DNA of 40,095 nucleotides from Porticoccaceae bacterium (lineage in GTDB: Bacteria > Pseudomonadota > Gammaproteobacteria > Pseudomonadales > Porticoccaceae): NCBI GenBank assembly GCA_029254005.1, contig JAQWYJ010000125.1:1-40095 (forward strand). Reading direction: 5' to 3'. The translations under genes and the position numbers were made by a program. This document shows positions 1 to 13,758 of the stretch, piece after piece. The stretch's first letter is position 1, and each line of letters begins with the position of its first letter. The notes below the pieces were generated by a model. It was given only the letters and a program-made list of their open reading frames with translations. It was not told where the DNA came from and made no database searches.

Positions 1-2
1 CC

Positions 3-287
3 ACGGCGGTTACTTCTGCGGTTGTTTTTGCCCTATCCTTATTTTCACTTTATGCTTTGTCGGGCGCTAATCTTATTGGTCGACTCCCGCTGCTAAAACT
101 TGGGCTGGTAGTTATTTCAGCGATTTATTTGTGTCGTGGTTTGGCCTTTGTGCTGATAATGCCTCTGTTTCCCGACAATAGTTTAGCTTTTTGGTTGGTC
201 AGTTCAGGCATTTGCCTGACCATTGGTATTTTATATTTTGTTGGCACGTTACAGAGCTGGGCGCTGATGGGTAAAAACCGCAGATGA
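3..287 (+). CDS. Partial small membrane protein (5' end outside window)
   Basis: The frame is open from the left window edge to the TGA at 285-287, so this is the 3' part of a gene that begins outside the window. About 94 residues are visible. They form three hydrophobic stretches: one right at the edge (TAVTSAVVFALSLFSLYAL), one around LVVISAIYLCRGLAFVLIM and one around FWLVSSGICLTIGILYFVGT. The protein ends in a short basic tail (GKNRR). This looks like a small integral inner-membrane protein. I do not recognise the family. A TTG at 57 could serve as a start, but the uninterrupted upstream frame with its own hydrophobic segment argues for a longer protein. Confidence 0.6.
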   Translation, partial: TAVTSAVVFALSLFSLYALSGANLIGRLPLLKLGLVVISAIYLCRGLAFVLIMPLFPDNSLAFWLVSSGICLTIGILYFVGTLQSWALMGKNRR

Positions 288-333
288 GATAAAACTCGTC
301 TCAATTACATAGGCCTGAAAACAGAGTACAGAA

Positions 334-717
334 ATGAATCTTAATCAAATCACATTGCCCGTGGAGCAAATGCCTGAGGCGGTCAATTTTTATCTAAAGC
401 TGGGTTTTACTCAAATTGTGGATACGCCCCATTACGCGCGCTTTCAGTGCCCAGAGGGTGATGCCACTTTTTCGTTGATGTTGGAGAGTGGGGACTTCAG
501 TAACGGCGCAGTGATTTACTTTGAACACCGACATCTTGATGATTGGATGAGAAAGTTAAAATCTATTGGTATTGAATTTTCACAAGATCCAGCAGACCAG
601 GATTACCTTTGGCGAGAAGCTATTCTTGAGGATCCCTCTGGCAACAAAATCAAATTGTATTGGGCTGGCGAGAACCGGCTCAATCCACCGTGGCGAGTAG
701 AGAGAAAGACGAATTAA
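334..717 (+). CDS. VOC (glyoxalase/bleomycin-resistance fold) protein
   Basis: A 127-residue protein with the single-domain vicinal-oxygen-chelate pattern: an N-terminal beta strand (NLNQITLPV), a helix with the family's 'FYLKLGF' phrase, a central segment ending in a Glu-containing strand (VIYFEHRHLDDW), and the C-terminal 'LEDPSGNKIKLYW', where VOC proteins usually carry the last metal-ligand strand. Such proteins dimerise and can be metal-dependent lyases, dioxygenases or drug-binding resistance proteins; substrate cannot be told from sequence. The ribosome binding site is weak (CAGAGTACAGAA before ATG). A YbjQ gene and a second VOC gene follow on the same strand, suggesting a loose detoxification-like cluster. 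Confidence 0.8.
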   Translation: MNLNQITLPVEQMPEAVNFYLKLGFTQIVDTPHYARFQCPEGDATFSLMLESGDFSNGAVIYFEHRHLDDWMRKLKSIGIEFSQDPADQDYLWREAILEDPSGNKIKLYWAGENRLNPPWRVERKTN

Positions 718-749
718 ATTCTTGGTAGATTGATAAAAAGGAGCGCTTT

Positions 750-1067
750 ATGATTTATTCAACCACAGAGTCTATACCAGGCAGAGAAACCGAGTCTGTC
801 GTTGGTGTGGTGACAGGCAACGTCGTGCAGTCAAAGCATATTGGCCGCGACTTAATGGCTGGGTTAAAGAGCATTGTTGGTGGGGAGATCCGCGGTTATA
901 CCGAAATGCTGACAGAAGCCAGGAATATTGCAGTTCAGCGACTGGTTGAAAGTGCCGGAGAAAAAGGTGCAGATGCCGTTGTGGGCATCCGTTTTACCAC
1001 CAGTGCAATAATGGACGGCTCTTGTGAAATCATGGTGTTTGGCACCGCGGTGAGATTAAAACCATAG
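750..1067 (+). CDS. YbjQ/UPF0145 family protein
   Basis: This 105-residue protein matches the YbjQ (UPF0145, 'heavy-metal-binding domain') family over its whole length. It shows the typical N-terminal 'TTESIPGRE', the 'GVVTGNVV' strand, the 'RDLMAGLKSIVGGEIRGYTEML' region and the 'AREARV-like' helix followed by 'GADAVVGIRF'. Family members form pentameric rings; their biological role is not established, and metal binding is only suggested by the domain name. The start is well supported: AAGGAG lies seven bases ahead of the ATG. It sits 32 bases after the first VOC gene on the same strand and is probably cytoplasmic, with no signal peptide or membrane segment. Confidence 0.88.
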   Translation: MIYSTTESIPGRETESVVGVVTGNVVQSKHIGRDLMAGLKSIVGGEIRGYTEMLTEARNIAVQRLVESAGEKGADAVVGIRFTTSAIMDGSCEIMVFGTAVRLKP

Positions 1068-1118
1068 TTGATGATTAAGCAGGAGCTTTGTCTTGACCGA
1101 TTTACTTAACAGAGCATC

Positions 1119-1439
1119 ATGAGAAGCTTTTTTCTCGTTTTGGCATGGTCCTGTGTGGTTGGAAGCGTTGTTGATGGAGTTCTTCTGCTCTATGCCGTCT
1201 GGATTAATTATTTGCACGATTGGTTGCTGTTGTGTATCTCAATTAACGATTTCCTCAGAGACTACATGCAGCCTTTGTTCTGGGTAAAGCAGGTGGCGTT
1301 TTTGGTTTTACCTGAGGCGATGGTTTTGTGGCTGTTTAACTTGCCCGCGCTGTTGTACTTTCCGGTTAGAATTATCACCAGTACTATGATTGGCTACTGG
1401 GCGTTATCTAGGGCGGCAGAGATGTCGAAGCACAGCTGA
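1119..1439 (+). CDS. Small integral membrane protein (duplicated locus, intact copy)
   Basis: A 106-residue protein with an N-terminal hydrophobic segment (FFLVLAWSCVVGSVVDGVLLLYAVWI), a middle amphipathic part rich in aromatic residues, and two further hydrophobic stretches (VKQVAFLVLPEAMVLWLF, LPALLYFPVRIITSTMIGYW). I do not recognise the family. The second half of this gene is repeated in decayed form near 7,410-7,600, where the TGG codon of 'LFWVKQ' has become TGA. The presence of a recognisable relic supports this being a real gene. It lies just upstream of an intact VOC gene, and that order is the same in the decayed copy. Confidence 0.6.
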   Translation: MRSFFLVLAWSCVVGSVVDGVLLLYAVWINYLHDWLLLCISINDFLRDYMQPLFWVKQVAFLVLPEAMVLWLFNLPALLYFPVRIITSTMIGYWALSRAAEMSKHS

Positions 1440-1528
1440 CCAAACCAGTGTTACTTTTTATAGCAGAGTAGAATTTTTGATTCAGCCAAACTAGACAGGA
1501 ACTGGCAATGTATCTTAAGGAGATGTAA

Positions 1529-1891
1529 ATGGGATCTATAAATGGAAAACTGGATTACGTGGAATTTCCGGCAGCGGATATTTCGGCAACCAAAGCATTT
1601 TTTAGTGAGGTATTCGGTTGGACTTTCGAGGATTTTGGCCCGGACTACACGGCGTTTTCTAAGCAGGGCCTAGATGGTGGATTTTTCAAGTCAGATAAGA
1701 AAGCAGCCACTGAAACTGGGTCAGCCCTTATGATTTTTTACAGCACTGATCTTGAAGGTACCTTGAGTAAGGTACAGGGAGCTGGCGGTGTGATAAGCCA
1801 AGAAATCTTCGCTTTCCCTGGCGGGCGGCGGTTTCATTTTGTCGAGCCCAGTGGAAATGAACTTGCGGTATGGTCAGATATTAGTCTTTAG
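1529..1891 (+). CDS. VOC family protein (duplicated locus, intact copy)
   Basis: A 120-residue VOC-fold protein of the 'PhnB/glyoxalase-like' short type. The N-terminal strand (KLDYVEFPAADI) is followed by a helix with 'FFSEVFGWTFEDFGPDYTAF', then 'GLDGGFF', and the C-terminal strand 'HFVEPSGNELAVW', which carries the usual Glu ligand position. Function could be small-molecule binding or lyase activity; no substrate can be assigned. The start is strong: AAGGAG sits six bases before the ATG at 1,529. A frameshifted relative with an internal stop lies at 7,698-8,089, so this is the surviving copy. It is followed by a small glycine-rich membrane gene on the same strand. Confidence 0.82.
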   Translation: MGSINGKLDYVEFPAADISATKAFFSEVFGWTFEDFGPDYTAFSKQGLDGGFFKSDKKAATETGSALMIFYSTDLEGTLSKVQGAGGVISQEIFAFPGGRRFHFVEPSGNELAVWSDISL

Positions 1892-1960
1892 CAAAATTCT
1901 ATTACAGACCTAACTGGTTAGGTAATTAATATTAATTAAAGTGACAGGGGTAATGGTTGC

Positions 1961-2155
1961 ATGAGCGGTAAAAAGAGTGAGAAAAGCAACCATTATTACG
2001 CTGGGCCAGGAATGATTTTCGGCGGTGGCATTGGCTTGGTTTTTGGGCGGACTATATTGGCAGATGTTGCACTTGGTTTCATTGTGGCTGCTGGTATCGG
2101 GCTGGTTTTTGATTCCATTGTTGGCCACGCTAAGAGTAAAAATGGCGGTAACTAA
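1961..2155 (+). CDS. Small glycine-rich membrane protein (intact copy)
   Basis: A 64-residue protein with a polar, basic N-terminus (MSGKKSEKSNHYYAG) and two glycine-rich hydrophobic stretches (MIFGGGIGLVFG and ALGFIVAAGIGLVF), ending in a conserved hydrophilic tail (AKSKNGGN). The GxxxG-like spacing suggests helices that pack tightly in the membrane. I know no named family. A shortened in-frame relative at 8,129-8,251 keeps both ends (start of protein and 'KSKNGGN') and loses the middle, which supports this reading frame over the overlapping frames. AGGGGT lies about ten bases before the start. A terminator follows about 145 bases downstream. Confidence 0.6.
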   Translation: MSGKKSEKSNHYYAGPGMIFGGGIGLVFGRTILADVALGFIVAAGIGLVFDSIVGHAKSKNGGN

Positions 2156-2300
2156 AGGTTGTTGTGCACTAGTCGGTGCTTTTAGGATCACGCATTATAA
2201 ATTTATTTTTTTTACTATTGTGCTTTTTTGCTTTATGAAAGTCGTATTACTCCAGAGACCTGCAAAATGATTTCTTAAACAGTGATGTTTCCCTTGCTTG

Positions 2301-2341
2301 AAAGGAGCTGGCTACCTATAACGTGGTCAGCTCCTTTTTTA
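2301..2341 (+). terminator. Rho-independent terminator, copy A
   Basis: AAAGGAGCTG at 2,301-2,310 pairs with CAGCTCCTTT at 2,328-2,337, and a run of T follows. The stem core is GGAGCTG/CAGCTCC. It closes the VOC/small-membrane-protein transcript. A homologous hairpin with three changed base pairs lies at 8,400-8,440. Confidence 0.85.
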
Positions 2342-2489
2342 TTTCGGGCTTGAGATGGCAGCAAGTGGCCTTCTTAATAATTAGTCGAGAGGTATATTGT
2401 TGTGTTCAGGTGGGTCGGCAGTGAGAAGCTCCAGCAATATGCGGCTTGTATTGGCGACTAAAGTAGACCGAACACTATTTGGAGAAACT

Positions 2490-2684
2490 GTGGAATTTGT
2501 TGAATATGGTGACAGACAGGGTCGTACAGTGATCTACTTTCATGGTGCCCCCGGCGCGGCAGAAGAAGCTGCTTTTTTCTCTGATACGGCTCAATATCAA
2601 CATCGTTTGCTGGTAACGGTTTTCTATCGATGAGTCTCTCACTGATGAAGATTATTTCCAACATATGGCCAATGAAATTCAAAC
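2490..2684 (+). pseudogene. Truncated, frameshifted alpha/beta hydrolase (copy A relic)
   Basis: From the GTG at 2,490 the translation matches the intact hydrolase at 8,956 for about 35 residues, including the oxyanion-hole region 'YFHGAPGAAEEAA'. About eight bases present in the intact gene (the CGTCACAA region after GCTCAA) are then missing, which shifts the frame to a TGA near 2,631. Nucleotide similarity continues out of frame through CAGTCTCTCACTG and CCAACATATGGCC, and ends near 2,684. The nucleophile, acid and histidine parts of the enzyme are absent. A longer reading frame opens at 2,397, but the conserved GGAG and GTG favour 2,490 as the ancestral start. This copy cannot make an active enzyme. 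Confidence 0.88.
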
Positions 2685-2865
2685 CATAATTGACTAGTAA
2701 GTCGGATTTCTGTCTTGGTCGATCAACTTCTGTTCCCGTTACAACTAGTACTGCGTTTGTATCTGCCCTAGGGGTGTGACTAACTGGTGGGACTGTCTGC
2801 TCTGAACACTTTGTTAGCACGAGCAAGTGTTTTGTCCCTAAGTTTGTCACCTGTTTTGGACGTCT

Positions 2866-3381
2866 TTATCGTCTGTGATTTCTACGTTTTTTGTATTCGG
2901 TAAAAGTGAACAAATAGATACCACTAACCCATAAGACAAACAAACCGACTCCAGCAGGCAGAAATACCCATAGTTTGACCCAATCGGCAAAAAAACTACC
3001 GTCATGGATTGATTCAATGACATCACTGCGACGCTGGGCGACCGATAAGACCTCAGTGGTATGAGTATCTATTTGCACTTCCCAATCGGTTTTAGAGACA
3101 AACTTGATGATTCCTTTGCCGGGTTTTAAATCAGCTCGTTGGAGTTGGTCCCAACGCGTAAACTCAGCAACCTCAACAGTTGAGGCAGCGTCGAATAAAT
3201 CTTGCATTGAGGCCATGGGGACAAGTTGCCTCTCACTACCCTTCTGACTTGGTGGTTGAATCCAATCGAATTCTTTTTTAACCATCAGTAGTATACCGGC
3301 ACCTATCATAATAATTAGCGGAAGTGCTATTGAGAAAGACCCCCAATAGTGGATCTTTCTCAACAAGGTAGATGTTCGCAT
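2866..3381 (-). CDS. PepSY-associated membrane protein
   Basis: A 171-residue protein in the PepSY-TM style. It has an N-terminal membrane helix preceded by the typical 'LLRKIHYWGS' phrase (residues about 6-35, IALPLIIMIGAGILLMVKK), a periplasmic PepSY-like domain of about 90 residues, then the 'ESIHDGSFFADWVKLWVFLPAGVGLFVLWVSGIYLF' ending. Family relatives occur beside iron and haem uptake genes or as shortened versions of PiuB-like reductases. No His-rich b-haem pattern of full-length PepSY-TM proteins is complete here, so the role is open. It is 39 bases downstream of the large VPS10/BNR gene on the same strand, and the two are probably co-transcribed. Confidence 0.8.
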   Translation of the reverse strand: MRTSTLLRKIHYWGSFSIALPLIIMIGAGILLMVKKEFDWIQPPSQKGSERQLVPMASMQDLFDAASTVEVAEFTRWDQLQRADLKPGKGIIKFVSKTDWEVQIDTHTTEVLSVAQRRSDVIESIHDGSFFADWVKLWVFLPAGVGLFVLWVSGIYLFTFTEYKKRRNHRR

Positions 3382-3420
3382 TTAGATTTTCGCCTCAATC
3401 ATCAGATGATTTAATACCAT

Positions 3421-6400
3421 TTAATCCATCTCCATCGGTTCATTGGAGATGCCTTCCATTATCCCGCTGGGCACCCAGGGCGCCCCAAAGTCTGATAAAG
3501 CCTTTTTGAAGGCAGGGAACTCTATTTTAAATAAATTATCCAATTGCGGTTGTAGCTCTCCAAGTGCGTCTTTTACGTAGGTCATCTGTTGCTGCTGAGT
3601 AGCGGTCAAGCCCCAAGTATTCACCCCAGCAAGTTCAACCACCGATAGACGGCTTGAAATCGTGGCGGGCGAGGCGCCAAATCTACTACTCGCACGCTTG
3701 CCATTAATTATCTCATCCAGATTGAAAACCGCTCTTCTTAATTGCTCATATTGCGCCTCTAAGTCACCAGCAACGGCAGATGAGCGATCTAACGCTACTC
3801 TAAAGGATTTTATCAAAGTTTTTAAATCACTTATTTGACTGGTTGCTTTAGACAGGCTGCGCCTTAGTTCAGCCACTTCAATTAGCATGGCTGATCGCTG
3901 TTGGGGTGAAAGACCTCCTTCTTCTGTTTCTTGATGAAGCGGCGTAACGTTAAAGTTTACCGCATCAGTGAGTTCACGCGTTTCTCCATTGACTGTGCTA
4001 AACAAGGTTGCAGTATAGGTACCAGGTGATACCAGTGGACCTACATCGTCTGCACTTTCAGAACCCAACGCCCTGGATGAGGATAAGCGTAAATCCCATG
4101 TTAACCGGTGCAGGCCTTTGCCAGTGTTGGCACTTACTTTACGAATCGAATCACCCTGATCATTTTTAATAATCAAATAAACCATAGGTTCTGATTCTCT
4201 TAATTCTGTCTCTACTTCTTCCCATGAGGGATACAGCGGATAGCCACCTTTTTCTTCCACCTTTTTTTCTTTTTGTTCACGCTGTTCAGTTAATGATTTA
4301 ACACCGTCACGCAAATAGTAGGTGAAAGTAGCCCCAAATTCTGGATTCTCAGTACGATATTCAAAATCACCCTGTGTGCTGGTATGGAATGTTTCAGGGA
4401 GGTACCAGAGTGCATCTCGTGATGGAAATAGCAATGCTTCTTGCTTTAAGCTTTCGCTGTTAATGTTACGCAGCGGCGAGAAGTCATCCAGTATATAAAT
4501 TCCTCGACCAAAACTACCGGCGACAAGATCATTTTCCCGGCGTTGAATTTTTACATCACGAAAAGAAATGGTCGGAACACCACCCGTCAATTCAATCCAC
4601 TCTTTACCTCCATCAACGGTAAAAAATAATCCGAACTCAGTACCAACAAACAATAAGTTCTGGTTTTCGTGGTCCTGGACGATGCGCCAAACTAAATGCT
4701 TATCAGGCAAGTTGGATGCGATAGATTTCCACGATTTACCTCGATTAGTGCTCTTTATTAGATAGGGCTTGTAATCCCCCTGCTTGTGATCATCCAAAGC
4801 GGCATAAACCGTATCTTTATCAAATAAATCAGCGCGTATATCGTTGATGTAAGCTGTATCTGGGATACCTTTAATCTTGCCAATCTCGTATTTGGTCCAG
4901 TCTTTACCGCCGTTTGAACTGACTTGAACTAAGCCATCATCGGTACCTACATACAAAAGATCAGGATCTAGCGGGGACTCCGCTATATTTGCAATGGTAT
5001 TAAAATTAGACATTGCATAAAGATCGAAACCTGAGTTAACTGACCAGGTCCTGCCCATCACCGGCATGTGCATGCGGTTTTGATTTTTGGTCAAATCATC
5101 TGAAATTGCACGCCAGCTGTTACCTCGATCATCAGATCGCCAGAGTCGCTGGGATGCATGATATAAGCGCTTTGGATCATGATTAGACACCAATATAGGG
5201 GCATCCCAATTATATCTTTCAGCCGGTTCATCAGGCTTTGCTTGAGGCTGAATAAAGACAATTTCACCGGTTTTTCGATGATAACGTGCAAGATTACCCT
5301 GTTGCCACTGACCGTAGACTATGTCTGGATTACCCGGCTCTGTCGCAGGCTGATGGCCATCTCCCCAAAGAATTAAAAACCAATCATTGTTCTTGATTCC
5401 ATGCTCTTTGGTTGTGCGCGATGGACCACCTTGAGAGCTATTATCCTGAGTGCCGCCATAGACGTAGTAAAAGGGTTTGCTATCGTCTACTGCAATTTTA
5501 TAAAACTGAGCAATTGGCAAGTTACCTTGGAAACGCCATTTTTTCATATCGTCTCGTGTTTCGTAAACTCCACCATCACTGCCAACTAACATGAAATTTT
5601 TATCTGTGGGATGAAATGCCATAGCATGATCATCAACATGCTTATTTTTGAGATTGAAAGGTGTCCAGGTTTTGCCGCCATCATCACTGTATTTACTGTA
5701 GTTACTCACCATATAGATGCGATCAAAACGGTGGGGATCCGCGAAAAGTTCTTGATAATAGTGGGGTCCGGTTCCTCCTCCAACTTCATCGGACATCTTC
5801 TCCCAACTGGCACCTTGGCTAGCTGAGCGATAAACTCCGCCTTTGCGTTGATTTAGCTCAATGGCCGCATAGACCACGTCCGGATCAATTTTGGAAATAG
5901 CCAGGCCAATTTTCCCCATATCTGCTTCTGGCAGGCCATTAGTGAGCTTACGCCAGGTCTTGCCACCGTCATCTGAGGTGTGAATTGCTGAGCCAGGTCC
6001 TGTACCCACAAAAGCAGGCAAAGTTCGTTGTCGCTGCCAAGTTGCTGCATAGAGCTTATCGGGATTTGTCGAATCAATAACCAAGGAAGTCACTCCGGTC
6101 CATTCATCGGTTTCTAAAACATTGCTCCAGGTTTCACCACCATCAGTGGTTTTGAATAGTCCTCGTTCACCACCTTTAGACCAAAGTGGTCCCTGAGAGG
6201 AAACCCAAACTGTATTGGAATCCTGTGGATGAACAACAATATCTGAAATATGTTCAGATTCATTCAAGCCTTTATTTTTCCACGTTTCACCGCCGTCAAG
6301 TGACTTATAAACTCCGTCACCGAAACTCAGGTGCCTACCACCATTGTTCTCTCCCGTACCTACCCAGATAATATTAGAGTTGCTCGGATCTATGGTGACA

Positions 6401-6690
6401 TCACCGGTTGAAAAAACAGCTTGTTTATCGAAAATGGGCATCCATGTAATACCTGCATTTACAGTCTTCCACACGCCACCTGAACCGACTGCAATATACC
6501 AAACCGACGGATTTTTAGTGTCCACCTCAATGTCAGCAATTCGCCCGGACATATAGGCTGGACCAATACTACGCAGCTTCATTGAGGCAAATAATTCATC
6601 AGTCATAACAGCAGACTGATCTTTTTTTTCGGCATGCAACGACGTCGAAGTGAGGGCTGCTACAGCCATCAAGATAATAAATAATCGCAT
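3421..6690 (-). CDS. Secreted VPS10/sortilin-like BNR-repeat protein
   Basis: A protein of about 1,089 residues. The chosen start (6,690) gives a clean signal peptide (MRLFIILMAVAALTSTSLHA) with AGGAA about seven bases upstream; a further ATG 42 bases upstream would place charged residues before it. Residues about 25-720 form a series of beta-propeller blades with repeated 'S.DGGKTW' Asp-box motifs (SLDGGETW, TTDGGETW, TSDDGGKTW, SDDGGKTWTP, SNGGKDWTK, TVDGGKEWIE). This is the architecture of bacterial 'VPS10 domain / glycosyl hydrolase BNR repeat' proteins. The C-terminal 350 residues contain a beta-rich part and a helical part near the end. Such proteins are exported; enzymatic activity is unproven for most. 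It sits between the two copies of the duplication, on the opposite strand. Confidence 0.85.
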   Translation of the reverse strand: MRLFIILMAVAALTSTSLHAEKKDQSAVMTDELFASMKLRSIGPAYMSGRIADIEVDTKNPSVWYIAVGSGGVWKTVNAGITWMPIFDKQAVFSTGDVTIDPSNSNIIWVGTGENNGGRHLSFGDGVYKSLDGGETWKNKGLNESEHISDIVVHPQDSNTVWVSSQGPLWSKGGERGLFKTTDGGETWSNVLETDEWTGVTSLVIDSTNPDKLYAATWQRQRTLPAFVGTGPGSAIHTSDDGGKTWRKLTNGLPEADMGKIGLAISKIDPDVVYAAIELNQRKGGVYRSASQGASWEKMSDEVGGGTGPHYYQELFADPHRFDRIYMVSNYSKYSDDGGKTWTPFNLKNKHVDDHAMAFHPTDKNFMLVGSDGGVYETRDDMKKWRFQGNLPIAQFYKIAVDDSKPFYYVYGGTQDNSSQGGPSRTTKEHGIKNNDWFLILWGDGHQPATEPGNPDIVYGQWQQGNLARYHRKTGEIVFIQPQAKPDEPAERYNWDAPILVSNHDPKRLYHASQRLWRSDDRGNSWRAISDDLTKNQNRMHMPVMGRTWSVNSGFDLYAMSNFNTIANIAESPLDPDLLYVGTDDGLVQVSSNGGKDWTKYEIGKIKGIPDTAYINDIRADLFDKDTVYAALDDHKQGDYKPYLIKSTNRGKSWKSIASNLPDKHLVWRIVQDHENQNLLFVGTEFGLFFTVDGGKEWIELTGGVPTISFRDVKIQRRENDLVAGSFGRGIYILDDFSPLRNINSESLKQEALLFPSRDALWYLPETFHTSTQGDFEYRTENPEFGATFTYYLRDGVKSLTEQREQKEKKVEEKGGYPLYPSWEEVETELRESEPMVYLIIKNDQGDSIRKVSANTGKGLHRLTWDLRLSSSRALGSESADDVGPLVSPGTYTATLFSTVNGETRELTDAVNFNVTPLHQETEEGGLSPQQRSAMLIEVAELRRSLSKATSQISDLKTLIKSFRVALDRSSAVAGDLEAQYEQLRRAVFNLDEIINGKRASSRFGASPATISSRLSVVELAGVNTWGLTATQQQQMTYVKDALGELQPQLDNLFKIEFPAFKKALSDFGAPWVPSGIMEGISNEPMEMD

Positions 6691-6732
6691 ATGACATTTC
6701 CTATGGATAGAACCAACAATATGAATTTTCAT

Positions 6733-7384
6733 GGATAATTGTACTTCACGAATTTTAAGCGCAACTTAGACTATACTCTTTACCTTTTGTGCTTTTGGCA
6801 GACTAACATGTAGATATTAATATCTGTATATTACATGGGTCAAGTCGCTTGTTAAGCGACACCAGAAATAGTTTAAACTCAGTTCTTATAACTAGATAAT
6901 TTAGCTTAAAGTAGGTCTTGTGGAGACTATATTGGGAAGAAAGCCTAGCTATGGTAAGGCCCTGACAGATTAAAGTAGTGAAACTGTAGAGATCTTTCTT
7001 TAAAATTATTTTTCCTGCGATGAGCTAACAATGCGGAGGCTTTATTCTCTTCAGAATCTTACAGATGTACTTGGCACCTGCTGCTAGAAAAATGGCTCAC
7101 CACCAGATTGATGCGCGAATCTCAAAAATTATGGTCTGTTTTGGCAATACGCATTCTCGTAATCCACTTAGTTGGCTCCCAACAGTCACCTGAGGATCGT
7201 TTAATTCTCCAGAAGCAAAAACCGAGTTATCAGTAGGACCAGAGAATCAATCGATCCAATCAATCTAGTCAGGATCATTTTTACAGACAGACCTGTTTAG
7301 CACGCGCGCCAAACCGCCTAGTTTTTAAATTACTACAGCTATGTGCTAAACAATCCGCCCAATGGCATAGATCTAAGTAAGTAC
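6733..7384 (+). other. Gene-poor stretch with no recognised content
   Basis: About 650 bases upstream of the VPS10/BNR gene hold no reading frame of useful length on either strand. The first 60 bases must include the promoter and leader of that gene. Short stretches read like decayed coding sequence: CQUITE short phrases such as DARISKIMVCFGNTHSRNP on the plus strand near 7,110-7,165, or WEPTKWITRMRIAKTDHNF on the minus strand over about the same bases. Stops interrupt both, and neither points to a family I can name. The stretch ends where similarity to copy A begins. Confidence 0.5.
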
Positions 7385-7600
7385 TTTGTTGATTAATTGT
7401 TGTTAAGGATTTCAATTAAAGATTTCCTCAAAGACTACATGCAGCCTTTGTTCTGAGTAAAGCAAGTAACGCTTTATAATTTACCTGAGACTTTAGCGCT
7501 ATGGCTACCCACGTTCTGATCGCTATTTTACTTTTTGGTTAGATTAAGTACTGGTAAAGCGGTGTCCTCTGGTTTTTTTGGAGTAACAAAATTTTTTTGT
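7385..7600 (+). pseudogene. Relic of the small membrane-protein gene (copy B)
   Basis: This stretch aligns with the second half of the gene at 1,119-1,439. The shared segment around GATTTCCTCA.AGACTACATGCAGCCTTTGTTCTG is almost unchanged, but the next codon is TGA-type (TTCTGAGTAAAG) where the intact gene reads TTCTGGGTAAAG. Beyond that, similarity continues weakly through TTACCTGAG and TACTTT.CGGTT with small gaps. The 5' half of the gene is missing or too diverged to see. No ribosome binding site or start codon remains. Confidence 0.75.
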
Positions 7601-7697
7601 AATGATCATAAAACCAGTGTCAATTTATATGAAACAGCAAGCTTTTTGATTTGGCTAAATTATAGATAGATTGACAACTTACCTAAAGGAAATGCGA

Positions 7698-8089
7698 ATG
7701 ACCTCAACCAATGAAAAATAAACTATGTGAAATTCCCAGCAGTGGACATTCTGACGACCAAGGCATTTTTCGGTCGGGTGTTCGATTGGACACTTGAGGA
7801 CTTTGGCCCAGATTACACGGCATTTTCTAATCAGGGATTGGATGGGGGTTTCTTTACGTCAGACAAAAAATCGGTTACAAAAACTGGGTAGGCTCTAATC
7901 GTATTTTATGACACTGATCTTGGCGCTACTTTAGGCAAGGTGTTGCAAGCTGGTGGTTTAATAAGCCAAGAGATATTTTCTTCTTCCGGTGGTAGGCGAT
8001 ATCATTTCATCGAGCCCAGCGGTAATGAACTTCGAGTATGGACAGATATTATCTTGCAGAAAAATGATATTTTAGGGCTACATAGTTAG
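7698..8089 (+). pseudogene. VOC family pseudogene (copy B)
   Basis: The sequence after the ATG at 7,698 follows the intact VOC gene at 1,529 but loses one base near the eighth codon, which brings up TAA and TGA at once. After correcting that shift, the translation runs FPAVDILTTKAFF, then DWTLEDFGPDYTAF, GLDGGFF, and the C-terminal HFIEPSGNEL, all closely similar to the intact copy. A second lesion is an internal TAG at the position where the intact gene reads TCA (ACTGGGTAGGCT versus ACTGGGTCAGCC). The original stop has also changed (CAG for TAG), extending the frame to the TAG at 8,087. Two independent inactivating changes make a functional product unlikely. Confidence 0.92.
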
Positions 8090-8128
8090 CTTTTTGGCGT
8101 TAATTAAAGTGGCATCAGCAGAAGTGCA

Positions 8129-8251
8129 ATGAGCAATAAATATAGTAAGAAAAGCATACATTATTACGTTGGTCTAGGAACGGTTTTCGGCAGTGGCTTG
8201 ATTTTCGCTTCAGCTGTTGGCCAAATCAAAAGCAAAAATGGTGGTAATTAA
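8129..8251 (+). CDS. Shortened in-frame relative of the small glycine-rich protein
   Basis: This 40-residue frame begins MSNKYSKKSIHYYVG, matches the N-terminus of the 64-residue protein at 1,961, and ends in the same 'KSKNGGN' tail. The middle differs by an in-frame loss of 24 residues that removes most of the second hydrophobic segment. Only one membrane-length stretch (VGLGTVFGSGLIFASAVG) remains. The frame is intact from ATG to TAA, unlike its decayed neighbours. A GAAG-type ribosome binding site (CAGAAGTGCA) is weak. It could be a surviving micro-protein or simply a relic that has not yet met a stop. Confidence 0.4.
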   Translation: MSNKYSKKSIHYYVGLGTVFGSGLIFASAVGQIKSKNGGN

Positions 8252-8399
8252 AGCTTACTTTGAGGCTGTGGATTTTTGTCGAGCCTAAACTTTGTATATT
8301 TTGGCGGTGGTAATTGAACTCTTGTGATATCTGGTGGTCATAATAAATGAGAAGTGTGTATAAAGATTTCTTAAACATTAACGTTTTCCTTGATTTTAA

Positions 8400-8440
8400 T
8401 GGGACTTATTAAGCAAAAACTTAGCAAGTCCCTTTTTTTT
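8400..8440 (+). terminator. Rho-independent terminator, copy B
   Basis: GGGACTT at 8,401-8,407 pairs with AAGTCCC at 8,426-8,432, with an inner TAAG/CTTA pairing, and eight T follow. The upstream sequence (GATTTCTTAAACA..) matches the lead-in to the terminator at 2,301, so the two are homologous, yet three stem pairs differ in a compensated way. Confidence 0.82.
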
Positions 8441-8460
8441 GTGGTGCTTAGAATTAATTT

Positions 8461-8553
8461 GTATGCTTTCAAAGAAACTTGGGTGCAGTGAACCCTGTAA
8501 TCTTTGGAAATGGTCGCAAATTTAAAAAATGCTGTGGTAAACACCTCCGGTAA
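8461..8553 (+). pseudogene. SEC-C zinc-motif relic
   Basis: In frame with the TAA at 8,551-8,553 the translation ends LGAVNPVIFGNGRKFKKCC followed by GKHLR. This lines up, without gaps, with the C-terminal SEC-C motif of many proteins (…NPCPCGSGKKFKKCCG…). The last CC pair and the GNGRKFKKCCG core are kept. The first two cysteines are replaced (V and F), so zinc could not be bound normally. No open frame with a start extends upstream. It is best read as the remaining 3' end of a decayed gene. It lies in the part of copy B that has no counterpart in copy A. Confidence 0.5.
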
Positions 8554-8955
8554 CCATAAGGTGTTGGTCTCATTTTCCTGGTTATTTCATTTTAGTGATC
8601 TCCTAATAGATCAATGTCTTGGATGGTGCTCAAAGGTCAATGAAGTTACACATTGTCTATACCATTATGATGGCGAAGAAACGTTCTTAAAAAGGTTGTT
8701 ATTGCTTTAATCAGAGCTTTGTTTTGAGTTTGAGAGAGCGGTAAATAGCTACCAATAACTCAATTTATTTATTGTCAGAATTTATGTTTGTGAAACCTTT
8801 GTCTGTGATCCTCTGGCTCAGGTGCTAGTGGCCTTTTTACGATCAGTCAATAGGTATGCTGTTGTGTTGAGGTGGATTGACAGTAAGAAGCTCTGGTTAC
8901 AACGTGGTTATATGAATCGGCAATCGACGCTGATAGAACACTACTTGGAGAAACT
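8554..8955 (+). other. Non-coding stretch before the hydrolase
   Basis: About 400 bases without a credible gene. A 68-codon frame crosses it from 8,504 but begins at TTG without a ribosome binding site and resembles nothing I know. From about 8,800 the sequence is again similar to copy A (GTGGCCTT.TT, then GGTAT.TTGTTGTGTT.AGGTGG), so the last 150 bases are the homologous leader of the hydrolase and likely hold its promoter. Confidence 0.5.
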
Positions 8956-9768
8956 GTGGAATTAGTTGAATACGGTGACAGACAGGGTCGTACAGTGATC
9001 TATTTTCATGGTGCCCCCGGCGCGGCCGAAGAAGCTGCTCTCTTCTCCGAAGTGGCTCAACGTCACAATATCAACATTGTCTGCTGGCAACGATTTTCCA
9101 TTGATCAGTCTCTCACTGGTGAAGACTATTTCCAACATATGGCCGATGAAATTCAAACTCAATTTCATGATCGATCTTTGGATATAATTGGCTTTTCCAT
9201 CGGTGCCTATGCGGCACTAGAGGTTGCTTCGCGATTGGGTGATCAAGTGGGCCAAGTGCATTTGATCTCGGCGGCAGGACCCATTAGCAGTAAAGAGATT
9301 TTGGATGCTATGGCCGGTGGCATGGTATTCAAGTTAGCCAAGAACCAACCGATGCTGTTTTCATGGTTGACTGGTTTGCAACGCTTAATAGCCGTTCTAG
9401 CACCTAAGTTTTTGTTCAAGATGTTGTTTGCCTCGGCACAGGGCTCAGATCGAGAATTGGCGCAGTCTGCTGATTTTCAACATGTCATAAGGCCATTGTT
9501 AACCTCGTGTTTTTCCAACTATGCGAAGGGTTATCAGCGTGATATCGACCAGTATGTGCAATGGTCGGGTAGTTTAAAAACCGCTATTATCGGAGTCAGT
9601 CTATGGCATGGTACAGAGGATAATTGGTCTCCCTTTGCTATGGCCACCGAATTGCACCAGCTTGTTGAAGCCAGACAGCCAGTCAATTCTATGGTGGGGC
9701 TATCGCATTATTCCTGTCTTTATCAGGCTATTCCCAAAATCTGCGCTGTACTGGATGTATCTGAGTAG
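8956..9768 (+). CDS. Alpha/beta hydrolase (intact copy)
   Basis: A 270-residue single-domain alpha/beta hydrolase, probably cytoplasmic. The oxyanion-hole motif is HGAPG (residues 18-22), the nucleophile elbow is GFSIG (Ser81), the acid is Asp222 in 'HGTEDNWSP', and the base is His251 in 'GLSHYS'. Residues about 100-190 make a helical cap. The triad is complete, so it should be an active esterase, lactonase or similar; substrate is unknown. The start is a GTG with GGAG five bases ahead, conserved in the broken copy at 2,490. An ATG upstream at 8,912 is out of frame. It is the surviving copy of a duplicated gene. Confidence 0.88.
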   Translation: MELVEYGDRQGRTVIYFHGAPGAAEEAALFSEVAQRHNINIVCWQRFSIDQSLTGEDYFQHMADEIQTQFHDRSLDIIGFSIGAYAALEVASRLGDQVGQVHLISAAGPISSKEILDAMAGGMVFKLAKNQPMLFSWLTGLQRLIAVLAPKFLFKMLFASAQGSDRELAQSADFQHVIRPLLTSCFSNYAKGYQRDIDQYVQWSGSLKTAIIGVSLWHGTEDNWSPFAMATELHQLVEARQPVNSMVGLSHYSCLYQAIPKICAVLDVSE

Positions 9769-9894
9769 CTAATTCAACGAGCAATCTCGACGACCCCTTA
9801 TTTTGAGTTATTGAGTCTGTTTGTTATTGCCTATTAATGGTAGTCTACATCCGTCCAGACATGAATTGAGCTTCATAAGGGAGAGATTTAGGAA

Positions 9895-10638
9895 ATGACT
9901 TTAATATCAAAAGTAGACCTTTATTTGCGCTCAGTAGTAGCACAGCCACAGGCTAACCAAGCCATGGTTTTTTCTGGGTTACTGGGATTCTTAGGTGCGT
10001 TCATTATGTTCGTTGGCGACCTGTTGCTTTATGCTCACTGGGACGCAGTTCCAGCGATAAATGATGCAGTTCTTGCTCTGTTGCCTGGGCGTAAAGCGGT
10101 GCTACTAGCTACTATTAACGACCTGCATCTTTCTGGCTTACTAGGCCCCATTGCGGCAGTTTTTTATTTGTTTGGTGCATGGCACCTGTATATTAAATTA
10201 GCTTCACGATCGCCACTCTGGGCTAGCTTTACGGCTATCTGCTTTGCTTTTAGTATTGTCATCGCTGGTGCTTTTCATGCCTTGTGGGGAATGTTTGGTT
10301 TTGTAGTTCAGTTTGCAAATCAGTATGCGAATGAATCTTTGATGCTACTTAATACGACGTCTAACTACATGGCATTTATCACTGATATGGTGACAATTCC
10401 ATTGGGTTTGGCTTGCGCGGTTTTGTTAGTTCGAGGGTTTTTGGGCAAAACTGACTATCCCCGTTGGATGTCGGTATTTAATCCACTGTTATTGTTAGTG
10501 GTGGGTGGGCCTATATTAGATTCGATTGCAGTTGATATGGTTGTGCCCTATGGTGCTTTGGCTGTTGGGACTTTCTTTAACGTGGCAATGATGGTGTTTT
10601 TTGCCGCTTCCATTCTAAGTCCAATAAGACAAAGTTAG
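9895..10638 (+). CDS. Six-to-seven-helix membrane protein (possibly DUF6796-like)
   Basis: A 247-residue integral membrane protein with evenly spaced hydrophobic segments: about residues 25-48, 82-103, 112-135, 155-180, 192-212 and 218-242. Conserved-looking features within the membrane parts include 'GDLLLYAHW', 'DLHLSGLLGPIAAVFYLFGAWHLY' and 'AGAFHALWG', with several histidines and acidic residues near the membrane faces. The overall look resembles the uncharacterised DUF6796 group, but I hold that loosely. It is preceded by GGGAGAGATTTAGGAA before the ATG. Six bases separate its stop from the next hydrolase gene, so the two are very likely one operon. Confidence 0.65.
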   Translation: MTLISKVDLYLRSVVAQPQANQAMVFSGLLGFLGAFIMFVGDLLLYAHWDAVPAINDAVLALLPGRKAVLLATINDLHLSGLLGPIAAVFYLFGAWHLYIKLASRSPLWASFTAICFAFSIVIAGAFHALWGMFGFVVQFANQYANESLMLLNTTSNYMAFITDMVTIPLGLACAVLLVRGFLGKTDYPRWMSVFNPLLLLVVGGPILDSIAVDMVVPYGALAVGTFFNVAMMVFFAASILSPIRQS

Positions 10639-10644
10639 GTCTAG

Positions 10645-11553
10645 ATGACGCGAAGAAAGCACCGTACTTTTGTCTTTATTACCGCTGTGATATCCGGCAT
10701 CCTGTGCTTTGGTATGTTGCTAACTGCTTGGACTTTTTCCTCTAACCTCATGTATCCGTCTTACCAATGCAGCGAAGAACATTTTTTGTATTGTGGTGAT
10801 CCTGCGCAACTGGATCTGGTGTTTGACGATGTGGTTTTCACTTCTAAAGATGGCATTGATTTGAGTGGCTGGTACATACCGTCTAGCCAATCAGCCAAGG
10901 CTATTATCTTTGTTCACGGTCATGGCGCAGATCGGCATGAAGGTATGCGTTGGTTCACAGCGATGCATAATGCTGGCTTTAATATACTCGCTTTAGATTT
11001 GCGCAACAGTGGACAAAGTGAAGGCGAATTTTCGTCGATGAGTTATTTTGAAAAACTTGATGTTATCGCTGCCGTGGATTTCTTAAAGCATCAAAAAAGT
11101 ATAGACAGAATTGGTATATTCGGTACTTCTATGGGTGCGGCGACCGCCATAATGGCCATGGAGCAAGATTCTCGAATCAGTGCCGGTGTGTTTGAGGCGG
11201 GCTGGGCAAACCTTCGAGATCTTCTTGGCGAAGTGATATCCCAACATCTAGGTTTACCTCGATTGCCGCTTTTGCCTATCTCTATATGGCTATTTGAATG
11301 GCGCTCTGGTGCTGATATAACTACCGTCAATCCTGATGCTGTTCTGGCTAATATCGCTCCACGACCGGTATTTATTATTCATTGTGAGGGTGATCAATTA
11401 ATCAATATTTCGCATGGTGAGAGAAATTTCTCTGCTGCTCAATTGCCTAAGGAATACTGGCGTTCTCCCTGTGATATTCACGCAAGAGCCTGGCAGTCTG
11501 CACCGAATTATATTGAAGCTCGCGTAGCAGGCTACTTTTTGAAGTATTTGTAA
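10645..11553 (+). CDS. Membrane-anchored alpha/beta hydrolase
   Basis: A 302-residue hydrolase of the serine aminopeptidase/BAAT-like S9 group. An N-terminal uncleaved anchor (residues 9-30) is followed by the catalytic domain. The oxyanion region is HGHGADRHEG (91-100), the nucleophile is Ser162 in 'GTSMGAA', the acid is Asp250 in 'HCEGDQ', and the base is His279 in 'CDIHARAW', so the triad is complete. The active domain probably faces the periplasm, given the anchor and an upstream basic MTRRKHR. Two cysteine-bearing loops (QCSEEHFLYC) near the anchor could form a disulfide. It is in an apparent operon with the preceding membrane protein. It is not a close relative of the hydrolase at 8,956. 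Confidence 0.85.
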   Translation: MTRRKHRTFVFITAVISGILCFGMLLTAWTFSSNLMYPSYQCSEEHFLYCGDPAQLDLVFDDVVFTSKDGIDLSGWYIPSSQSAKAIIFVHGHGADRHEGMRWFTAMHNAGFNILALDLRNSGQSEGEFSSMSYFEKLDVIAAVDFLKHQKSIDRIGIFGTSMGAATAIMAMEQDSRISAGVFEAGWANLRDLLGEVISQHLGLPRLPLLPISIWLFEWRSGADITTVNPDAVLANIAPRPVFIIHCEGDQLINISHGERNFSAAQLPKEYWRSPCDIHARAWQSAPNYIEARVAGYFLKYL

Positions 11554-11735
11554 CTCGCGGGTTGATCGAAAAAAATCTTATTTCATAGCGTAAAAAATTT
11601 ATGTCGCTACAGGCGTGTCAGTCCAAACATAGCTGCCTATCGGCAAATATTGTTAAATTGAGTACCCAGCCTATACTAACGAGTGCAGACCTTTTTGTGA
11701 AAGACTATTTTTAATGTCATTTAATGGAGGTAAAG

Positions 11736-13151
11736 ATGCCCACAAATTCAATTGTGTACCGCAACCCATTAATCATTTTACTGGCGACATTAGCATTGCA
11801 AGTGTCGGCGGCCACCTCAGGTGATTTTCAGCAGCCTAATATTGTGCTGGTAGTCATGGACAACTTTGGCTATGGAGAAATTGGTGTCTATGGCGGGGGT
11901 GTTATCCGCGGTGCGCCAACGCCTAATATCGACAGCATTGGACAGCAGGGATTTCAATCTACCAATTTTAATGTCGAGGCAGAATGTACGCCATCTCGAT
12001 CAGCACTGATGACAGGCCGCTATGGTATTCGAACCCGACAGCGCCCCGAGGGCTCGCCGCGAGGGATTTGGTACGGTTTGACATCGTGGGAAATTACATT
12101 GGCAGAAATGCTCTCCAATGCAGGTTATGCTACTGGTATGTTTGGCAAGTGGCATTTGGGTGATGCTGAGGGTCGCTACCCCACCGATCAGGGCTTTGAT
12201 GAGTGGTATGGTATTCCTAATTCTTCTGATCAAGCATTCTGGCCGGATAGTGACAGTTTTCAGGCTGACTCGGGCGTAGAATTTACTCGTGTGATGACCG
12301 CTGTACGTGGCGAAAAGCCACAAAAGAAAGAAGTATATGGTCGTGCAAAACGTGCCACTATCGACCGTGAAATTACTGACCATGCGCTGGACTTTATCGC
12401 ACGCAAAGCCAATGCTAAGCAGCCATTTTTCGCTTACGTCCCCTATACTCAAACTCATGAGCCGGTGGATGCTCACCCTGATTATAAAGGCTCTACTGGC
12501 AATGGCAGTTTTGCTGATGTATTGGCCCAGACCGATGCTTATGTGGGCGAATTATTATCTGCTGTCGATGAGTTGGGTTTAAGGCAAGAGACTATCTTTA
12601 TTTTTACCTCAGATAATGGTCGCGAAGGTATTAAACGGTCCTTTGGTTTCACTGGTCCGTGGCGTGGAACCATGTTCTCGCCATATGAAGGCTCCCTGCG
12701 CGTCCCTTTTCTTATTCGTTACTCAGGCCATATACCCGCTGGACAAGTGTCAAATGACATTGTTCACTTGATCGATATTTTTCCCACTCTAGCGTCTTTC
12801 GTTGGAGGTGAAATTCCCACTGATCGAGTCTTAGATGGCGTTGATCAGAGTGGATTTTTCACTGCAAAACAATCTAAGTCTCTCAGAGAATCGGTTATTA
12901 TCTATATTGGCAATGACATCTTTGGGGTTAAATGGCGCAACTGGAAAATGTTACTCAAAGACATTGATGAAAAAAGTTACGCGATTAAAAACTTAGCTTA
13001 TCCTTCATTTTATAATCTTATTGTGGATCCAAAAGAGGAAGAACCTGAAAAATTCTATCTTGATGATACCTGGGTAGAGACGCCTCTATATCAGGTTATG
13101 GAAGAGCATTTGATATCCATTGAAAAAGATTCAGGATCCCCCGGTGATTAG
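11736..13151 (+). CDS. Arylsulfatase-family sulfatase (Cys type)
   Basis: A 471-residue exported sulfatase. The second ATG (11,736) is preferred over 11,724 because GGAGG lies five bases before it. A signal peptide covers residues about 1-25 (LIILLATLALQVSA). The sulfatase signature CTPSRSALMTGR holds Cys84, the residue that a formylglycine-generating enzyme converts to formylglycine. Metal ligands are Asp42 and the adjacent Asn in 'MDNFGYGE', and the Asp-Asn of 'TSDNGREG'. The DN instead of DD is usual in the arylsulfatase subgroup with 'YGGG..RGAPTPNID'. It should hydrolyse sulfate esters in the periplasm, consistent with marine sulfated organics. No formylglycine-generating enzyme gene is in the window. 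Confidence 0.9.
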   Translation: MPTNSIVYRNPLIILLATLALQVSAATSGDFQQPNIVLVVMDNFGYGEIGVYGGGVIRGAPTPNIDSIGQQGFQSTNFNVEAECTPSRSALMTGRYGIRTRQRPEGSPRGIWYGLTSWEITLAEMLSNAGYATGMFGKWHLGDAEGRYPTDQGFDEWYGIPNSSDQAFWPDSDSFQADSGVEFTRVMTAVRGEKPQKKEVYGRAKRATIDREITDHALDFIARKANAKQPFFAYVPYTQTHEPVDAHPDYKGSTGNGSFADVLAQTDAYVGELLSAVDELGLRQETIFIFTSDNGREGIKRSFGFTGPWRGTMFSPYEGSLRVPFLIRYSGHIPAGQVSNDIVHLIDIFPTLASFVGGEIPTDRVLDGVDQSGFFTAKQSKSLRESVIIYIGNDIFGVKWRNWKMLLKDIDEKSYAIKNLAYPSFYNLIVDPKEEEPEKFYLDDTWVETPLYQVMEEHLISIEKDSGSPGD

Positions 13152-13264
13152 TTGGGGGAGCTTATGAGCTTTATCTCACCTGTCGACCTATTGTCGGGGT
13201 AAAGTCGTAGCCGACAGCCCTCTAAATCTGCAACAGTGGTATTGCAGAGGCATAAGGAAAGAAT

Positions 13265-13678
13265 ATGATTGTTAAAAAATTAAGAGATAAAAATGGCTGG
13301 ACTCAAGAAGAGCTAGCCGAGTGTTGCAATTTAAATGTGAGAACTATTCAGCGTGTTGAGAGTGGGCAGAATGCCAGCCTTGAAACATTACAAAGCCTTG
13401 CTTCTGTATTTGAAATCGATATTTCAACATTAACAGAGGAAATTACAGTGATAGATAAAAAATTACAGAGCTGGAAGGTTTTACCTTGGTGGTTTAGGGT
13501 TAATATGTTCGGTGTTCGTAAAAAGCGAACTGTTCTTTGGTGCGAATGTATTATGATATTTGCTGGCTTTACCTATGGCATCCTTTTACAGGATTCATCA
13601 ACTGCAGCCATTATGTTTTTTGGAGCCTATGTTACCAGCTGGTTGGTTAGATATGGCGATAAACATCATGTTTGGTAA
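13265..13678 (+). CDS. XRE-family regulator with a C-terminal 2TM tail
   Basis: A 137-residue protein. Residues 1-58 are a Cro/C1-type helix-turn-helix (KLRDKNGWTQEELAECCNLNVRTIQRVESG, broken here by my reading into helices 1-3), typical of the 'WTQEQLA..sGLS.RTIQRiE.G' regulators. Residues about 65-90 are a linker that ends in basic residues (GVRKKRTV), and residues about 90-132 contain two hydrophobic helices (LWCECIMIFAGFTYGILL, TAAIMFFGAYVTSWLV). This HTH-plus-2TM plan suggests a regulator tethered to the inner membrane. AAGGAAAG precedes the ATG. A strong bidirectional terminator follows. No operator can be identified with confidence. Confidence 0.85.
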   Translation: MIVKKLRDKNGWTQEELAECCNLNVRTIQRVESGQNASLETLQSLASVFEIDISTLTEEITVIDKKLQSWKVLPWWFRVNMFGVRKKRTVLWCECIMIFAGFTYGILLQDSSTAAIMFFGAYVTSWLVRYGDKHHVW

Positions 13679-13709
13679 ACCTTGCGGTAGATTAGAGGTG
13701 ATATAGGTT

Positions 13710-13736
13710 AAAAAGCCCGCTAGTTGCGGGCTTTTT
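13710..13736. terminator. Bidirectional terminator between XRE gene and purH
   Basis: AAAAAGCCCGC, loop TAGTT, then GCGGGCTTTTT is a perfect 11-base inverted repeat. It has a T run on both strands, so it can end the plus-strand regulator transcript and the minus-strand purH transcript. Confidence 0.93.
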
Positions 13737-13758
13737 AATATTGAGACAACAACAAGCA

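Follow-up and report, generated by a model that had tools for sequence, protein, structure and literature searches.

Apparent gene-by-gene decay of an old duplicated gene block in a Porticoccaceae bacterium

Introduction

Redundant gene duplicates in bacteria are kept for a while and then lost through frameshifts, stop codons or deletions, with differing survivors. For mitochondrial gene order, the tandem duplication-random loss (DRL) model describes how a block is doubled, one copy per gene decays at random, and relics and a new gene order are left behind; the locus reported here resembles that outcome. The model is named in PMC5745709 and PMC4223735.

The window, that is, the whole stretch of DNA analysed, comprises 40,095 nt of a Porticoccaceae bacterium (GCA_029254005.1, contig JAQWYJ010000125.1, positions 1-40,095) and is a MAG contig. 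It was compared with UBA9550, a sister species represented by one fragmented MAG of ~340 contigs with 5% contamination and N-filled joints: all UBA9550 evidence below comes from that single MAG. A literature search, with subscription journals largely outside its coverage, showed no published account of the locus among the matches listed. Our reading is that the window probably holds an old two-copy stretch from which the redundant genes are disappearing one after another, a half-completed case of duplication and random loss.

Results

Two homologous copies of one gene block

Copy A (~1205-2700) recurs as copy B (~7378-9175) in equal order and orientation, intergenic sequences and terminator position included. 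The copies lie 4.7 kb apart with a PepSY-VPS10 segment between them, and the features are as follows.

1119..1439, plus strand: membrane protein gene, copy A, survivor; 106 aa, orphan
1529..1891, plus strand: VOC-family gene, copy A, survivor; 120 aa, Pfam Glyoxalase PF00903 at 36.5 bits (cut-off 20.6)
1961..2155, plus strand: small glycine-rich ORF, copy A; 64 aa, coding status doubtful
2300..2338, plus strand: predicted intrinsic terminator, copy A; 16-pair stem and T run, -25 kcal/mol, z -6.8
2361..2700, plus strand: hydrolase relic, copy A; comprises the upstream region and ~70 initial codons with an 8-bp deletion and an in-frame TAA, after which homology ends
2866..3381, minus strand: PepSY_TM protein; 171 aa, Pfam PF03929 at 43.3 bits (cut-off 28.8)
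3421..6732, minus strand: VPS10/sortilin-like BNR-repeat protein; 1103 aa, Pfam PF15902 at 109.5 bits (cut-off 33)
7378..7620, plus strand: membrane gene relic, copy B; without a recognisable 5' part, and with one TGA common to UBA9550
7698..8055, plus strand: VOC relic, copy B; carries a 1-bp deletion and a TAG and has lost its native stop
8129..8251, plus strand: shortened small ORF, copy B; 40 aa against 64 in A, 72 fewer bases
8401..8432, plus strand: terminator-like hairpin, copy B; stem sequence different from that in A, T run after, -14.1 kcal/mol, z -3.0
8479..8550, plus strand: SEC-C-like remnant, inside a ~370-base stretch missing from copy A
8956..9768, plus strand: alpha/beta hydrolase gene, copy B, survivor; 270 aa, GTG start, open, LIDHydrolase PF10230 at 34.7 bits (cut-off 27)

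An earlier note on this DNA had claimed that the same ordered block occurs twice, and the pairwise alignment it proposed bears this out: similarity extends beyond the protein families into the intergenic and terminator regions. Two blastn matches link 1218-2029 to 7391-8197 (69% identity over 813 columns, E 9e-89) and 2361-2684 to 8824-9158 (80% identity, E 7e-84), and ungapped repeats extend the similarity to 1205/7378. Four non-coding stretches align between the copies with scores reached in 0 of 500 dinucleotide shuffles each: the membrane-VOC intergenic (58/89 identical), the VOC-small ORF intergenic (44/68), the stretch from the small ORF to the terminator (117/183) and the stretch upstream of the hydrolase (82/120). 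The 5' part of the membrane gene (301 of 500 shuffles reach the score), YbjQ against the far upstream of copy B (36 of 500) and the sequence behind the hydrolase break (86 of 500) did not rise above shuffles. The copies are thus homologous throughout the doubled stretch; the aligning non-coding parts and the VOC clade described below rule out that they are mere members of common families. Several genes with their intergenic sequences are present twice in one orientation, as duplication-random loss calls for. Neither blastn nor shuffle-tested alignments revealed a duplication junction between the copies.

Only 1 of 200 shuffles folds as well as the copy-B hairpin, which is absent from the output of a consensus terminator scan. 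The SEC-C-like remnant lies below its Pfam cut-off (E 0.048; 14 bits against 20.4), and the search of genus genomes showed DNA resembling its stretch at G000:C114, G054, G056 and G062.

Apparently staggered lesions and surviving genes

Damage is found in both copies, as the earlier note had described: hydrolase A, membrane B and VOC B are broken and the small ORF of copy B is shortened, while hydrolase B is intact with its triad residues. Its 'frameshifted, truncated' hydrolase A is indeed damaged, being cut off after ~70 codons and not only frameshifted. One copy of each gene has been lost and the survivors are split, membrane and VOC having been lost in B and hydrolase in A: three clear losses in one lineage. 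Purifying selection acts on membrane A, VOC A and hydrolase B, which upholds for these genes the proposals that copy A keeps its first genes and that each gene is selected separately; the small ORF, included in both proposals, shows no constraint.

At the thresholds applied, the membrane-A protein matches nothing in Pfam or NCBIfam; it is constrained between the window and UBA9550 (dN/dS 0.05, dS 0.15; Fisher test of synonymous against nonsynonymous, p 2e-5). Membrane B carries a TGA at the TGG of A plus further stops (2 TGA and 1 TAA within the match at 7379-7564). That TGA is also present in UBA9550, which would place the onset of membrane-B decay before the species split. Between species, membrane B still has a dN/dS of 0.39 (p 0.004): unless the gapped alignment is misleading, the gene must have been under constraint for part of the period after the species diverged.

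VOC A passes the curated PF00903 cut-off. NCBIfam assigns it no subfamily or substrate: its two matches there score 23.6 and 17.5 bits, far under the respective cut-offs of 250 and 280. It is constrained between window and UBA9550 (dN/dS 0.15; Fisher p 2e-6). In UBA9550, VOC B is open across all 104 codons covered and free of the window lesions, with a dN/dS of 0.19 between the species. The two VOC copies within UBA9550 differ by a dS of 1.20 and a dN of 0.11 (dN/dS 0.09). An open VOC B at this divergence and constraint indicates that both VOC copies were maintained for long, and the substitution pattern marks them as old genes, both long under purifying selection. In a tree with 38 distinct relatives from the fetched loci, a subset of the 110 genomes (out of 341) that gave a match, the VOC copies of the window and UBA9550, four in all, group in a clade of their own (support 98/100; B pair 99/88); the bootstrap had not settled (0.976). 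Private changes in VOC B number 28 in the window (codon positions 10/6/12) and 12 in UBA9550 (5/0/7; p 0.017): VOC B changed faster on the broken branch.

The small ORF behaves differently from the surviving genes. Between the species, copy A shows 11.7 nonsynonymous and 2.3 synonymous changes (dN/dS 1.56, p 0.53), UBA9550 has ATT where the window has ATG, and the protein is matched in 1 of 293 order genomes, its own. By these counts it appears to be without constraint, and its standing as a gene is doubtful.

Hydrolase B passes the curated PF10230 cut-off, and its GTG at 8956 falls in a column with Met in several relatives (L005, L029, L030, L033). Its Ser (GFSIG), Asp (GTEDNW) and His (SHYS), which we take from the fold to be the catalytic triad, match the relatives covering those columns. 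It is constrained between window and UBA9550 (dN/dS 0.13; Fisher p 2e-8). Among the 36 genomes compared, the five closest relatives other than itself are 42-52% identical and three more only 22-26%.

In hydrolase A, the TAA stands at the CAA of B. Its private changes in the window fall 4/1/11 over the codon positions (p 0.006) and A differs from B with a dN/dS of 0.20 (p 3e-4), which argues for a working gene until lately. Fixed differences between the copies number 342 of 1223 positions upstream and 0 of 136 in the hydrolase (bin sums), so the hydrolase 5' ends have a history that differs from the rest of the block. In UBA9550 the 8-bp deletion is absent across the 51 codons covered. The copy-A scaffold there stops inside the hydrolase, and its 23 end bases are identical to the start of the hydrolase-B contig; because of this identity, the intact stretch may be a product of gene conversion or of a misjoin. 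A search with a 21-base pattern (≤2 mismatches) found the two known ends only and no third UBA9550 contig sharing them. Relative to window B, UBA9550 hydrolase A shows 3 nonsynonymous and 0 synonymous changes, an unexpected pattern for a gene under constraint; a Trp-to-Leu difference there, considered as a sign of decay, is not telling, since most relatives have Asp or Asn at that position. The alike 5' ends would thus reflect gene conversion or a misjoined contig. No UBA9550 match was found to window positions 8011-9086.

Search for a single-copy ancestor

The earlier note had proposed a comparison with close relatives to find a single-copy ancestor, and none was found in the following searches. 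A DNA search of 50 genus genomes, with six candidates scored per genome, detected the block only in its own genome and UBA9550. A protein search with the membrane and small proteins, made in 293 evenly drawn genomes of the order (six of the genus including its own; UBA9550 not among them), likewise yielded no such ancestor, the membrane protein being matched in three genomes: its own and two weakly. Among relatives, 47 VOC loci with 38 distinct sequences had no membrane, small or hydrolase protein match in the flanks fetched, mostly 1.5 kb, and 0 of 19 hydrolase loci (18 genes) had a VOC match in the flanks fetched.

Discussion

The VOC-B lesions and the hydrolase-A deletion are absent from UBA9550 over the codons covered, and the membrane-B stop is common to both species: decay appears to have been staggered. 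We propose that a stretch of membrane protein, VOC protein, small ORF, terminator and hydrolase was present twice and that spares were lost singly from either copy. Membrane B would have broken before the species split, and VOC B and hydrolase A only in the window lineage. Each protein would have been needed once, with chance deciding which copy broke. Hydrolase A would have been full length before being cut near codon 70, and recombination between the copies may have homogenised the hydrolase 5' ends. The net effect would be an altered gene order, with the surviving hydrolase ~6 kb from its former neighbours and PepSY-VPS10 between. The simple duplication with reciprocal decay of the earlier note does not hold, given the open UBA9550 VOC B, the long upkeep of both VOC genes and the separate history of the hydrolase 5' ends. 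A bolder version, which we regard as less likely than not, is that each loss can be placed in sequence and that gene conversion kept the hydrolase end alike while the remainder diverged, so that recombination between the copies influenced which genes were still free to be lost from which copy.

A quite possible alternative, though one we would not call probable, is that copy B is a xenolog: the locus acquired a PepSY-VPS10-block B segment by recombination with an unsampled member of the genus, with a crossover at the hydrolase on the right and, on the left, an illegitimate join within hydrolase A. The latter would then have been cut at arrival, and hydrolase B would combine a foreign front part with a resident gene making up most of its length. 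The sharp shift in A/B divergence at the hydrolase start, where the crossover would lie, agrees with this, as does the VPS10 gene (dN/dS 0.08 between the species), which occurs in 2 of 50 genus genomes, both block carriers. PepSY and VPS10 genes also adjoin in G230, of the same family, where the neighbour of the VPS10 gene is 57% identical to the PepSY_TM protein over 171 aa. Synonymous differences in VPS10 (253/732) exceed those pooled over 14 genes of contig C297 (842/3491; p 1e-8); single C297 genes, however, reach dS 0.41 and 0.45 against 0.46 for VPS10, which weakens high VPS10 dS as proof of import. The donor would also have to be an unsampled carrier of the same block, since the two VOC copies are closer to each other than to any of the 38 relatives in the tree, and the constraint history of hydrolase A is unlike that of a gene cut on arrival, unless its changes predate arrival.

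That selection purposely kept one copy per function, by subfunctionalisation or for a dosage or regulatory gain from splitting the block, is improbable. The constraint on membrane A, VOC A and hydrolase B would fit, but random loss in which each gene keeps one copy leaves survivors on both sides in 75% (three genes) or 87.5% (four genes) of cases by simple arithmetic; the reciprocity, read in the earlier note as a sign of selection on each gene separately, therefore needs no special cause. The unconstrained small ORF speaks against purposeful retention as well, and a predicted terminator-like hairpin precedes the hydrolase in both copies, so splitting would gain no separate transcript. The window being a MAG contig, the broken genes might be assembly or consensus errors; we consider this very improbable in view of several separate lesions, private VOC-B changes spread evenly over codon positions, a G+C of 0.36-0.40 over 6501-9000 (0.39-0.50 in the remaining 500-base steps of 1-14000) and recurrence of the membrane-B TGA in a second MAG.

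Regarding duplication with staggered random loss, the preferred reading, several observations weigh on the other side: the block is known from one other genome, itself fragmented and lacking a match to window positions 8011-9086; its hydrolase-A end may be converted or misjoined and differs oddly from window B; membrane B retains a sign of constraint between the species; the searches described above found no single-copy ancestor; and the PepSY-VPS10 segment fits import of copy B equally well.

On a small scale, the locus shows the resolution of a redundant gene block in a marine bacterium through losses whose relative timing can be worked out, and illustrates gene-order change without transposition. 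It also cautions that one good copy of each gene should not be taken as special selection. Given strain-level genomes, it could serve for estimating how fast duplicates are lost.

Compared with known systems, the locus is a clear, ordinary instance of duplicate-gene decay and not a new kind of system. The surviving hydrolase resembles LIDHydrolase proteins in score and in its Ser, Asp and His. In contrast to the mitochondrial DRL cases, the locus lies on a bacterial chromosome, its copies are separated and old (by the VOC dS in UBA9550) and alike at one end, and its original single-copy order was not found. Relative to bacterial non-functionalisation and differential loss in general, it gathers losses of different age in one stretch, which a sister species helps to order.

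Doubled block and its distribution

The doubling of the block reported in the earlier note is real: copy A (about 1205-2700) and copy B (about 7378-9175) align, with 69% identity between 1218-2029 and 7391-8197 and 80% identity between 2361-2684 and 8824-9158. Four non-coding stretches between or before genes also align, with scores reached by 0 of 500 shuffles. The similarity extends to 1205/7378 via ungapped repeats, and three pairs outside the block ends were unremarkable (301, 36 and 86 of 500 shuffles scored as well). The lesions listed in that note were all found. Two genes separate the copies, and each copy contains a hairpin followed by a T run at a matching position, with unlike stem letters:

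2300-2338, terminator-like hairpin of copy A; -25 kcal/mol, z -6.8; in the consensus scan
2866-3381, minus strand, PepSY gene
3421-6732, minus strand, VPS10 gene
8401-8432, terminator-like hairpin of copy B; -14.1 kcal/mol, z -3.0; absent from the consensus scan

The copy B hairpin is retained despite the dead membrane and VOC genes ahead of it, and both sides of its stem differ in sequence from that of copy A. About 370 additional bases lie between the terminator and the hydrolase of copy B. A SEC-C-like motif remnant below the Pfam cut-off is found at 8479-8550, in a stretch absent from copy A; similar DNA occurs in the window's own genome (G000:C114) and in genomes G054, G056 and G062. Elsewhere, a 31-base inverted self-match (13708-13738), a near palindrome of 90%, lies between ORFs 11724-13151 and 13759-15333.

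The window is a complete contig (C21) of a 2.55 Mb MAG of 147 contigs, from a genus that we take to be near the SAR92 clade. Among 50 genomes of the genus, its own included, the block was found in one other only, the sister species Porticoccaceae bacterium UBA9550 (G036 and, in the genus search, G043, with identical contig numbers and coordinates). There, contig C102 carries copy A, C324 has PepSY-VPS10 plus the first part of copy B, and C297 has the hydrolase together with what lies behind it; window 8011-9086 has no match anywhere in UBA9550. These scaffolds contain N joints: one within YbjQ (C102), one of 2 N (C324) and two on C297. Over window 1-28239, individual genes differ in their synonymous divergence from UBA9550, from about 0.05 to 0.46, a spread resembling that of a recombining mosaic.

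Constraint on the surviving genes

We compared the window with UBA9550 by Nei-Gojobori dN/dS and by Fisher tests of synonymous versus nonsynonymous changes. The ratio was 0.05 for the membrane gene of copy A (p = 2e-5), 0.15 for VOC-A (p = 2e-6), 0.13 for the copy B hydrolase (227 codons; p = 2e-8) and 0.08 for VPS10 (p = 1e-105). The interpretation in the earlier note is partly right: selection on separate genes is supported, as purifying selection, for the three surviving copies, and is not supported for the small ORF (nonsynonymous changes 11.7, synonymous 2.3; p = 0.53). The ATG start of this ORF is ATT in UBA9550, and it occurs in 1 of 293 order genomes, its own (a draw with six genus genomes, UBA9550 not among them); we do not regard it as an established gene. 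The membrane protein, matched in 3 of 293 order genomes including its own, the other two weakly, is an orphan. The reciprocity itself needs no special cause: if each needed gene retains one randomly chosen copy, survivors do not all fall in one copy with probability 1-2/2^n (75% with three genes, 87.5% with four). A split between copies is the ordinary expectation, and special selection is not indicated.

Age of the copies and order of breakage

The VOC copies of UBA9550 differ by dS 1.20 and dN 0.11; in the window dS is 2.2, near saturation. In a tree of 42 rows (the four copies and 38 distinct relatives from the loci fetched; bootstrap unsettled, 0.976), the four copies form a single clade (98/100) and the two B rows pair (99/88). 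Divergence and tree together indicate that both VOC copies were long maintained under constraint. A duplication that was recent and decayed reciprocally at once does not fit the VOC gene.

One TGA in the membrane gene of copy B is common to the window and UBA9550. Neither the 1-bp deletion nor the TAG of the window's VOC-B is present in UBA9550, where VOC-B is open for 104 codons up to the contig end, and its copy A hydrolase is free of the 8-bp deletion across the 51 codons present. These lesions suggest that membrane-B was the first to break and that the breaks in VOC-B and hydrolase-A came afterwards, on the branch leading to the window. Private VOC-B changes number 28 in the window (codon positions 10/6/12) versus 12 in UBA9550 (5/0/7; p = 0.017). 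Counter to a long-dead membrane-B, its dN/dS between the window and UBA9550 is 0.39 with a remaining synonymous excess (p = 0.004); because of this excess, the gene may have been lost only a little earlier than the species separated, or the alignment, which has gaps, may mislead.

The hydrolase end differs. In window bins 1200-2499, 342 of 1223 sites have one base in the two A copies and another in window B; bins 2500 and 2600 contain 0 such sites among 136. Synonymous change between the window's hydrolases (13 of 42.5 sites) is also lower than between the VOC copies of UBA9550 (42.7 of 71.3; p = 0.002), so the hydrolase copies are either younger or have been homogenised. The window's hydrolase-A carries 16 private changes (codon positions 4/1/11, p = 0.006), as would be seen in a gene translated until lately. 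In UBA9550, the copy A hydrolase stretch is the final 154 bases of a scaffold whose end shares 23 identical bases with the start of C297; compared with window B it has 3 nonsynonymous differences and no synonymous one, and may reflect conversion from copy B or a misjoin.

Origin of copy B

An import of copy B together with VPS10, with recombination at the hydrolase, fits several observations, although it is not proven. VPS10 matches occur in 2 of 50 genus genomes, the window's own and UBA9550; at the level of the order, 56 of 341 genomes have matches, many of which are weak and partial. PepSY adjoins VPS10, in a different order, in a genome of the same family (G230). VPS10 synonymous divergence from UBA9550 (253 of 732) exceeds that of 14 pooled C297 genes (842 of 3491; p = 1e-8), but individual C297 genes reach dS 0.41 and 0.45, close to the 0.46 of VPS10. 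Because the VOC copies are each other's nearest kin and hydrolase-A bears past constraint, we rank duplication within the lineage somewhat ahead of import. Staggered loss holds whichever origin applies, so confidence in it and in import overlap.

The VPS10-like gene has a 43% identical paralogue in its own genome (G000:C12:460-3627). On UBA9550 C324 (locus L037), a second VPS10 C-terminal piece (336-608, 78% identical) lies ahead of the full gene (715-4020), across the 2-N joint that adjoins it, and is either a true tandem duplication or a strain mix.

The locus illustrates duplicate decay well; the locus itself is new, its kind already known.
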